51,396 bases of DNA. Source: Micromonospora orduensis. Lineage in GTDB: Bacteria > Actinomycetota > Actinomycetes > Mycobacteriales > Micromonosporaceae. Shown in pieces: positions 14,046 to 24,193 of the stretch. The position numbers and the translations under genes are program-made. Positions within the stretch are counted from its first letter, which is position 1; each line of letters opens with the position of its first letter. The notes beneath the pieces were generated by a model. It was given only the letters and a program-made list of their open reading frames with translations. It made no database searches and was not told the DNA's origin. The stretch spans positions 1 through 51,396 of the forward strand of contig NZ_VDFY01000130.1 in NCBI RefSeq assembly GCF_006228125.1, read 5' to 3'.

Positions 14046-14129
14046 GCCCGGGTGGTGGAACGGCAGACACGGCCGCCTTAAAAGCGGCTGCCGAAAGGCG
14101 TGCGGGTTCGACCCCCGCCCCGGGCACCA
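14046..14129 (+). tRNA. bldA: tRNA-Leu (anticodon UAA), bldA-like
   Basis: Acceptor arms GCCCGGG (14046-14052) and CCCGGGC (14119-14125) pair fully; discriminator A14126 and an encoded CCA (14127-14129) follow. The anticodon stem GCCGC/GCGGC frames loop CTTAAAA, giving anticodon TAA, which reads the UUA leucine codon. A long variable arm (TGCCGAAAGGCG) and T-loop GGTTCGACCCC confirm a class II leucine tRNA. In Streptomyces the UUA-reading tRNA is bldA, which gates development and antibiotic genes because UUA is rare. Body closely resembles S. coelicolor bldA as I remember it. Confidence 0.95.
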
Positions 14130-21722: not shown

Positions 21723-22232
21723 TCAGAGGGGGCGGGCGTAGCGCAGTTGGGGCGTGAGGGCGGTGCCGATGTGCTCGTCACGCTCCGCTCCGGTCGGGGT
21801 CCAGCCGCCGCGCTCGTAGAAGGAACGGGCGTGGGCGTTCTCCCGCAGCACCCAGAGCACGGCACGCCGCCAGCCCTGCGCCCGCATGGCGTCAAGCGCG
21901 TCCACCATCAGGGTGCGGCCGACGCCCCGGCCCTGCTCGGTCGGGTCGAGGTGGATCGCGTTGAGTAGCCCGGTGGCCGGGTCGTCCTCGTCGTCCGGGC
22001 CCAGGTGGCTGAACCCGACCAACCTCCCGGCCCGTTCGGCCACGGTCATCCGGTGGGTGTCCCGCTCCCACTGCCACCGCTCGACCCAGTACCGCCCCAT
22101 CGCCTCCGGCGTCGGGTCGGCAAGCGCCGCGGCCGGCAGGAACGAGGAGTACGCGGCGACCCGGGAACGCTGGTGCAGGGCACCCACCCCCATCAGGTCG
22201 TCACCGGTGGCGGGACGGAGCGTGACGGTCAC
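21723..22232 (-). CDS. GNAT family N-acetyltransferase
   Basis: Acetyltransferase of 169 residues with unknown substrate. GNAT motif A is [21 protein letters not shown] (acetyl-CoA loop Q-x-x-G-x-G), and motif B is [21 protein letters not shown]. The GTG start overlaps the rnz stop by four bases, so it is translated from the rnz transcript. No functional link to tRNA processing is evident beyond this coupling. Confidence 0.87.
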
Positions 22233-23158
22233 CCGGCCGAGGGTACCCGGCGCGGCGGCACCTGCACCGTCGTCAGGTCCTCGGCGATGATCAGCTCACC
22301 GTCGAAGTGGACCCGCGCCTCGTCGTGGAACCGGCGCGGGTCGGGGTACCGCTGGGAGAAGTGGGTGAGCACCAGCCGGCGTACCCCGGACTCGGTCGCC
22401 ACCCGGGCGGCCTGCGCCGCGGTCAGGTGCCCGACCTCGGCGGCCAACGCGGCCTCCGACTCCAGGAACGTCGACTCGATGACCAGCAGGTCCGCGTGCT
22501 CGGCGAGGGCGTACACCCCGTCGCAGAGGGCGGTGTCCATCACGAAGGCGAACCGCTGCCCCGGCCGGGGCACGCTCACCTCGTCCCGGGTCACGCGGCG
22601 CCCGTCGAGGTCGAGGTGCCCGACGCGGATCAGCTCGCCGACGGCCGGCCCGGCGATGCCGTACGCGGCCAGCTTCTCCGGCAGCATCCGGTGCCCGTCC
22701 GGCTCGATCAGCCGGTAACCGTACGTCTCGATGGGGTGCCGGAGCCGGCGTGCCTCCATAAAACCGCAGCTCAGCGCGACCCGCTGCCCGTCGGCCTCGA
22801 TCGGGGTGACCGCCAGCTCGGCGGTCTCGTAGAAGGAGGTGGCGTGCCGCAGGCGGGCGAAGTACTCGGTGCCACCGGCCGGGAAGTGCACGGCCACCGG
22901 GTGCGCCACCCGGTCCAGGGAGAGCCGCTGGATGGTGCCCGGCAGCCCCAGGCAGTGGTCGCCGTGGAAGTGCGTGACACAGATCCGGGTCAGGTCGGTG
23001 GCGGTGACCGTGGTGTGCAGGAGCTGCCGCTGGCTGCCCTCGCCCGGGTCGAAGAGGATCACCTCGTCGTCCCAGCGCAGCACGTACCCGTTGTGGTTGC
23101 GCAGCCGCGTCGGCGCCTGGCTGGCCGTCCCCAGCACCACCAACTCGCGCATCGACAT
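22229..23158 (-). CDS. rnz: Ribonuclease Z (tRNA 3'-endonuclease)
   Basis: Metallo-beta-lactamase-fold nuclease that cuts precursor tRNAs 3' of the discriminator base. The zinc motif HFHGDH (63-68) with D67/H68 is intact; further ligands lie in FVMDTALC and [11 protein letters not shown]-terminal [16 protein letters not shown] is diagnostic of RNase Z. 309 residues, normal for the short form. I take ATG 23158 because GGAAGAGG lies seven bases upstream; an ATG two codons later is an alternative. The 252 bases upstream contain an elaborate leader (see separate entries). The downstream GNAT gene overlaps. Confidence 0.93.
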
Positions 23159-23183
23159 CGACGGGCCTCTTCCGGATATGAAG

Positions 23184-23248
23184 CGACCCCCGGGGCGCTC
23201 CGCGCTGTCGCGCGGGCCGGCTGGACTGGGCCGGCGCCCCGGGGGTCG
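23184..23248 (-). terminator. Branched hairpin (three-way junction) upstream of rnz
   Basis: A 15-base perfect outer stem (23184-23198 with 23234-23248) encloses two hairpins: CCGCGC/GCGCGG with four-base loop (23200-23215) and CCGGC/GCCGG with eight-base loop (23217-23234). It could act as terminator/attenuator or a protein-binding element. Confidence 0.55.
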
Positions 23249-23346
23249 GGTGGCTGCCTGGAATTCGCCGCACCGCTGCCACACGGTCTCGACGATGGTG
23301 CTGGTTGCCCGCCTGTCGGCGGACCGTTCACTGTCGAGGACAGCGG

Positions 23347-23385
23347 CTAGCGGACAGCCACCTCACGAGTCCGATTGCTATACAA
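23347..23385 (-). CDS. Possible 12-residue leader peptide
   Basis: TTG-initiated ORF encoding (M)[11 protein letters not shown], ending at TAG. Its only support is the exceptional SD tract ending ten bases before the start codon (from GGAGG). Too short for coding statistics. Could instead be non-coding. Confidence 0.3.
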
Positions 23386-23389
23386 GTCT

Positions 23390-23404
23390 GGACCACCTCC
23401 TTTC
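23390..23404 (-). promoter_or_regulatory. Extended Shine-Dalgarno tract
   Basis: GAAAGGAGGTGGTCC on the minus strand can pair along all 15 bases with the 16S rRNA 3' end (GGAUCACCUCCUUUC), with a single G-U pair. Usual SD sites in this window pair over four to seven bases. Confidence 0.6.
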
Positions 23405-23416
23405 ACGTGTACCGCC

Positions 23417-23446
23417 ACGCTATCGAGTCTTCGTCGGGCTCGGCAA
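23417..23446 (-). promoter_or_regulatory. Promoter of the rnz leader
   Basis: On the minus strand TTGCCG (plus 23441-23446) and TAGCGT (plus 23417-23422) are 18 bases apart. Transcription would start near 23410, just before the extended SD tract. Confidence 0.45.
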
Positions 23447-23472
23447 CGGATTTCGATCACAGGGCCGGACGG

Positions 23473-23507
23473 GAATGCCCGGCCACCTTCTCGGTGGCCG
23501 GGCATTC
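23473..23507 (-). terminator. Terminator of msrA
   Basis: Fifteen-base perfect stem GAATGCCCGGCCACC / GGTGGCCGGGCATTC with loop TTCTC, starting 24 bases after the msrA stop. It isolates msrA from the rnz leader. Confidence 0.85.
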
Positions 23508-23530
23508 GAGGTCGTGCGGGAGTACGGCGG

Positions 23531-24193
<663 letters not shown>

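Follow-up and report, generated by a model that had tools for sequence, protein, structure and literature searches.

Ms_IGR-5 of Micromonospora orduensis, a small RNA whose fold incorporates a conserved frame of 12 codons

The analysis of a 51,396-nucleotide stretch of Micromonospora orduensis DNA (contig NZ_VDFY01000130.1, hereafter the window) places the gene of the small RNA Ms_IGR-5 on the minus strand, at 23178..23410, with a short open reading frame (ORF) whose codons appear to form part of the RNA structure. We consider it rather probable (about 0.55) that Ms_IGR-5 is a free-standing, ribosome-gated small RNA that holds a conserved 12-codon frame within its own fold. Membership of the Ms_IGR-5 family was already known; the conserved frame and two added pairings, a helix (P1) and a pseudoknot, are apparently undescribed as far as open-access searches show, and no description of any of the three in Ms_IGR-5 was found in the open-access literature.

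The RNA was identified by an Rfam covariance-model search, in which it matches RF02471 (Ms_IGR-5) over the full model (1-184 of 184) with 100.1 bits, against a cut-off of 45, and an E-value of 2.1e-21. This E-value, together with the ORF and the pairings kept in relatives, puts the signal above chance. The 5´ end at 23410 was placed by the Rfam model, and the model 3´ end lies at 23178. Ms_IGR-5 is present in a single copy in the 6.9-Mb genome and sits between two genes also on the minus strand, msrA upstream (PMSR domain in Pfam) and rnz downstream (22229..23158, ATG at 23158), which encodes an RNase Z-like protein of the metallo-beta-lactamase fold (Pfam PF12706 and PF00753). The latter is a neighbour of Ms_IGR-5 outside the conserved context of the family. 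A preliminary description of this stretch had listed a Shine-Dalgarno sequence (SD), a 12-codon ORF, hairpins and a terminator-like stem ahead of rnz, all of which are present on the minus strand, and had read them as either a regulatory leader of that gene or a separate small RNA. The full-length RF02471 match bears out the small RNA, whereas a leader or attenuator of rnz finds no support as the role of the family; an exact hit to a known Rfam family had been named as an outcome that would speak against the description, and RF02471 is such a hit. Only RF02471 and one tRNA reach the Rfam cut-off in the window, tRNA-Leu (anticodon TAA, 14046-14129) being the sole other RNA gene detected.

At E ≤ 1e-3, Ms_IGR-5 was found in 106 of the 121 genomes sampled from the family of the window organism (103 above the cut-off), in 131 of 197 genomes of the class sample (130 above the cut-off), in 57 of 296 genomes of the phylum sample and in none of 14 control genomes; the family, class and phylum samples overlap. 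Deep relatives are detected weakly by the Rfam model, since just 26 of the 57 phylum-sample matches pass the cut-off. A pattern scan of named genomes yielded at least 80 loci, and the taxa among the matches listed comprise mycobacteria, Nocardiopsis, Cellulomonas, Nocardioides, Actinomadura, Acidimicrobiia, Solirubrobacterales, Thermoleophilaceae and others. One metagenome record labelled Acidobacteriota (L231) also appears with Ms_IGR-5 among the matches listed, perhaps through a binning error or transfer. The whole comparison covered about 260 relatives. From the longer match list of the family, class and phylum samples, 183 loci were fetched, and 182 were aligned after one exact duplicate was dropped. 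Two genomes of one genus in the family (L164 and L165) show a long insertion in the variable middle of the RNA, because of which Rfam splits it into two partial hits; tandem copies were rejected there in favour of a single RNA with an insertion.

The reading frame lies at 23347..23385 (minus strand), starts with UUG, read as M, and encodes 12 residues before a UAG stop. In 180 of the 183 loci the stop is located exactly five codons after an invariant GAG GUG. The usual stop is replaced in L116, where the following codon is a stop, and two deep relatives (L104 and L107) carry a shorter frame of 10 codons in a different register, in which the stop follows GAGGUG at 8 nt instead of 9. The stop codons of the 183 loci are TAG (163), TGA (12) and TAA (6), with two loci without a stop. 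In-frame starts at the normal spacing are ATG, GTG or TTG in 163 loci, CTG in 10, ACG in one and ATA in one; six deep loci (L025, L085, L086, L089, L090 and L096) have just ATT or ATC at the start position, hinting at near-cognate starts behind a strong SD. ORF lengths are 12 codons in 137 loci, 13 in 19, 14 in 18 and 15 in one. Across 166 distinct sequences, the distance between the SD and GAG is divided among the three remainders modulo 3 (72, 53 and 41), and an ATG, GTG or TTG 5-12 nt past the SD is in frame in 148, with 24 and 7 in the other two frames.

As the Rfam model itself carries part of the ORF, the frame was retested in the loci of the pattern scan, the pattern of which contains neither a start nor a stop codon and which is the sole set free of both. 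The stop falls five codons after GAG in all 80 matches listed (TAG in 60, TGA in 15 and TAA in 5), and 69 of them have an in-frame ATG, GTG or TTG, the other 11 showing CTG, ATC or ACG nearby by eye. The comparison indicates that relatives keep the 12-codon frame as such, its start and stop codons being interchangeable, and that Ms_IGR-5 contains the conserved translatable ORF expected of a dual-function small RNA.

The frame is preceded by an extended SD, GAAAGGAGGUGGUCC (23390..23404, minus strand), which is complementary to the 3´ tail of 16S rRNA over 15 nt with one G–U. The complementary 16S tail, GGATCACCTCCTTTCT, is present in the genome, and the 13-nt SD core, AAGGAGGTGRTCC, has exactly two occurrences in the 6.9 Mb, one in Ms_IGR-5 and the other antisense to the 16S tail. 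A second, internal SD-like block, GAGGUG, comprises codons 8-9 (23359..23364, minus strand) and does not vary in any of the 182 aligned sequences. The distance between its end and the stop is 9 nt in 180 of the 183 loci and, judged from known SD spacing, would therefore place the block at SD spacing from a ribosome positioned on the stop codon.

None of 200 shuffled sequences folds as stably as the window RNA (z -5.70). Individual pairings were analysed in the 182 aligned sequences and in 120 sequences thinned below 75% identity, with the same outcome, against 1000 shuffles, which ignore the relatedness of the sequences. Covariation among relatives, proposed at the outset as a check on the structure, was found for pairs of P1, P2a and the pseudoknot that exceed all of these shuffles. 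Helix P1 joins the 5´ end of the RNA (23406..23409, minus strand) to codon 7 and the first base of codon 8 (23364..23367). Its pairs 2-4 form in 179, 175 and 165 of the 182 sequences, in comparison with shuffled means of 133.6, 137.4 and 139.6 (0/1000 shuffles reach these values), and include A–U, G–C, C–G and U–A pairs. P1 fails in slid registers, and its pair 5 remains below the shuffles in the 182 sequences. Among the matches listed in the pattern scan, pairs 2-4 form in 72, 72 and 63 of 73 further loci, left from 80 after dropping three already in the first set and four that lack AC at the 5´ end or are repeats.

The pseudoknot connects GGACU in codons 5-6 (23368..23372, minus strand) with AGUCC in the terminal hairpin loop (23223..23227). 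Alignment columns 57:313 form a standard pair in 129 of 173 sequences (71.6 when shuffled), columns 53:318 in 171 of 172 (162.3) and columns 56:314 in 167 of 173 (164.3), values reached by 0/1000 shuffles in each case. No excess above the shuffles was detected for 54:317, 55:315 and 58:312, partly because one clade is misaligned. In 111 of the 120 thinned sequences, the mean longest helix between ORF and loop measures 5.49, versus 4.83 with swapped loops. Among the matches listed, the variable position of the pseudoknot pairs in 39 of 59 further loci, against 23.9 when shuffled, and a terminal loop with GUCC was not found in 14 of 73. Both strands change together in L115 (GGAUGA/UCAUCC), L116 (GGAUG/CAUCC), L157 (GGAACG/CGUUCC) and L019 (UCGACC/GGUCGA); despite the altered pseudoknot strands, the GUCC beside the SD is unchanged in L116, L157 and L019.

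Downstream in the frame, helix P2a pairs GGUGGCUG (23355..23362, minus strand) with CAGCCACC (23249..23256), and five of its nine pairs, aligned as GGUGGCUG with CAGYCACC, exceed every one of 1000 shuffles. Covariation does not support P2b, which would pair the stop codon itself (76:230, 77:228 and 78:227). The segment GGCGAAUUCC (23260..23269), opposite the stop-codon region, is strongly conserved and predicted to be mostly unpaired from the alignment columns.

In the structure line of Rfam, the 5´ end is free of pairing and the GUCC adjacent to the SD is joined to GGAC. The outer pair of this first hairpin, 52:24, covaries (85 of 181; 68.2 when shuffled), but the hairpin was rejected as a conserved pairing, given that its inner pairs show no covariation, although it can form. 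The minimum-energy fold of the window RNA contains this GGAC-GUCC hairpin and neither P1 nor the pseudoknot, so energy alone is no proof of the version with P1. Judged by covariation, P1 and the pseudoknot between the ORF and the terminal loop are pairings that Rfam's model does not contain.

The genomic context was analysed in 83 loci with flanks, a few of which end early at contig ends. In nine of these 83 loci Ms_IGR-5 is followed by rnz, which corresponds to 9 of 32 loci from the family of the window organism and 0 of 51 others. By tblastx, the flanks fall into 33 downstream groups, mutually unrelated, and 32 upstream groups. Pfam-confirmed genes only were used, since a composition-based gene caller missed rnz in L001, L010 and L037. 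Nine further checks were made in loci chosen for an apparently convergent downstream gene, which was then confirmed by Pfam: the next gene is on the opposite strand in 9/9, at most about 65 nt from the RNA end, and the Pfam types include a heme-binding THAP4 type, pyridoxamine phosphate oxidase, methyltransferase, STAS and DNA ligase. Ms_IGR-5 therefore cannot be the leader of these genes. The comparison of neighbourhoods indicates that Ms_IGR-5 is a free-standing RNA. A general role as an rnz leader was discarded on account of the rarity of rnz behind the RNA, its absence outside the family, the 33 downstream groups and the convergent neighbours. The suggested link to tRNA processing by RNase Z gained no support from synteny, the evidence examined. 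In the nine rnz loci, all from the window's family, the rnz start is located about 10-55 nt behind the RNA 3´ end, so read-through into rnz may occur in the window's lineage, and a leader role for rnz may exist in this lineage only.

A predicted -10 box region, TAGCGT, lies at 23417..23423 (minus strand), some 12 nt ahead of the 5´ end. Its identification relies on its sequence and conservation: of 182 loci, 157 have a TAnnnT box 12 or 13 nt upstream of the 5´ end, where about 1.4 would be expected per position, and TTG occurs at -35 to -37 in 117 of 182. A generic sigma-70 scan found no promoter. At the other end, the predicted fold closes with P3 (23185..23247, minus strand), a G+C-rich, terminator-like hairpin without a U-tract, and a terminator scan found no U-tailed terminator. 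The upstream part of the region is indeed AT-richer, as had been noted from the start: the G+C content of the two 60-base windows over 23330-23419 is 0.55 and 0.57, whereas the 17 remaining windows of 23000-23599 range from 0.62 to 0.85.

The proposed mechanism begins with the binding of a 30S subunit to the unusually long SD of Ms_IGR-5, followed by translation of the frame, which probably takes place in Micromonospora orduensis. Codons 5-6 would be taken by the pseudoknot, 7-8 by P1 and 8-11 by P2a; with codons 5-11 engaged in pairing, a translating ribosome must therefore open all three elements, which could refold once it departs. At the stop codon, the terminating ribosome might linger with its anti-SD paired to the GAGGUG located 9 nt ahead. 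The folded RNA and the ribosome-held RNA would then differ in activity or stability, and conceivable outputs are a bound protein, an RNA target or the titration of 30S subunits. In this lineage only, rnz may additionally be read through from Ms_IGR-5.

More tentatively, and with less confidence than in ribosome gating as such, Ms_IGR-5 might act as a ribosome sensor across the phylum, its frame being kept for the act of translation rather than for a peptide. The ribosome would bind through nearly the whole 16S tail, unzip the core codon by codon and park at the stop on the internal SD, while the pseudoknot would close when ribosomes are scarce, so that the fold would report translation capacity. 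If the frame has been retained for the sake of translation, Ms_IGR-5 would represent a free-standing RNA counterpart of leader-peptide switches and would directly read out how available ribosomes are in actinobacteria, antibiotic producers included.

It could instead be proposed that Ms_IGR-5 acts through its 12-residue peptide, as a dual-function RNA in which the structure only stabilises or controls the message. The conservation of frame, start and stop is in line with this idea, and the peptide contains well-kept residues: among 113 distinct 12-codon ORFs, T6 is found in 109, R7 in 85, and E8 and V9 in all 113. However, these residues coincide with paired or SD-like bases, and E8 and V9 are fixed even at their third bases. 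At codons 5 and 12 the variation is concentrated in base 1 (1.86 and 1.26 bits), bases 2-3 being nearly fixed, which is the reverse of coding constraint, and codons 2-4 vary at all bases. Moreover, L104 and L107 retain GAGGUG in a different frame. Codon entropies mostly track RNA pairing; codons 6 and 11 are coding-like, with most of their variation at base 3, and the third base of codon 6 is the covarying pseudoknot base. As the codons mostly lack amino-acid-type constraint, translation, more than the peptide, seems to be conserved, and we infer that selection acts on translation and RNA pairing rather than on the peptide. A functional peptide as the product is considered rather unlikely. An ordinary antisense sRNA acting in trans, its seed being the GUCC loop or the C-rich strands and its ORF a by-product, is ranked slightly below it: the RNA is free-standing and structured, with its own promoter-like box and a conserved GUCC loop, but this loop covaries with the RNA's own ORF, and a by-product ORF is not expected to hold frame and stop so strictly.

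Lower still in probability is the leader or attenuator, in which ribosomes on the ORF would decide whether P3 halts transcription ahead of rnz. The pairing of the ORF with the terminal loop fits such a device, and the short distance to rnz in the nine family loci leaves scant room for a promoter of its own; against it stand the presence of rnz behind just 9 of 83 loci, none of them outside the family, together with the diversity of downstream groups and the convergent genes. The least probable of the explanations weighed here is a decoy whose pairing with the 16S tail would titrate 30S subunits, with translation incidental. Its complementarity of 13-15 nt, with a 13-mer unique in the genome outside 16S, and the second SD-like block GAGGUG agree with a decoy, yet a pure decoy requires no start, frame or stop. 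The ribosome-gated small RNA is the reading preferred over all of these. The frame, P1 and the pseudoknot suggest specific mutants for testing, and their inclusion would make the Rfam model better.

The available parts of one article describe reads from ribosomes that map to Ms_IGR-5 in M. abscessus and in M. smegmatis; its authors caution that canonical non-coding RNAs give Ribo-seq footprints as well (PMC4974804). Transcription is described in the accessible portions of articles on S. lividans (PMC8079986), S. avermitilis (PMC8780764) and M. smegmatis (PMC10454040). In the literature on the M. tuberculosis neighbourhood, an uORF of Rv0813c was found, without a tie to Ms_IGR-5, and a literature search did not establish identity between Ms_IGR-5 and scr4389, a Streptomyces sRNA in the right number range.

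In relation to known systems, the window RNA belongs to the same family as the Rfam entry RF02471 and has the same domain order. The entry is filed as an sRNA, without a function, and its model lacks the conserved frame, P1 and the pseudoknot; Ms_IGR-5 is in this sense a small RNA that a bacterial phylum has retained and to which Rfam assigns no function. Like leader-peptide attenuators, it has a short 5´ ORF with an SD, codons that would pair downstream and a terminator-like end hairpin, but it shows neither a conserved regulated gene behind it nor a run of codons for a single amino acid. Dual-function small RNAs, of which SgrS/SgrT is an example, are likewise free-standing sRNAs with an ORF; in contrast, the codons of Ms_IGR-5 would form the RNA core, and its peptide appears weakly constrained. 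6S RNA and Ms1 resemble it as free-standing structured RNAs of actinobacteria, and no Rfam match to 6S RNA was detected in the window. The partner of Ms1 is RNA polymerase, according to the available parts of two articles (PMC9130861 and PMC4191392), and a term search of the accessible text of a RIP-seq paper (PMC11077062) did not return the name Ms_IGR-5. Finally, the Caulobacter sRNA CC2171 (RF01867) has at its 5´ end the same 16S-complementary block as Ms_IGR-5. Membership in that family was rejected, with 15.9 bits against a cut-off of 75 and a resemblance (23302-23412) limited to this block, and RNAs with the same 5´ device may exist in other phyla.
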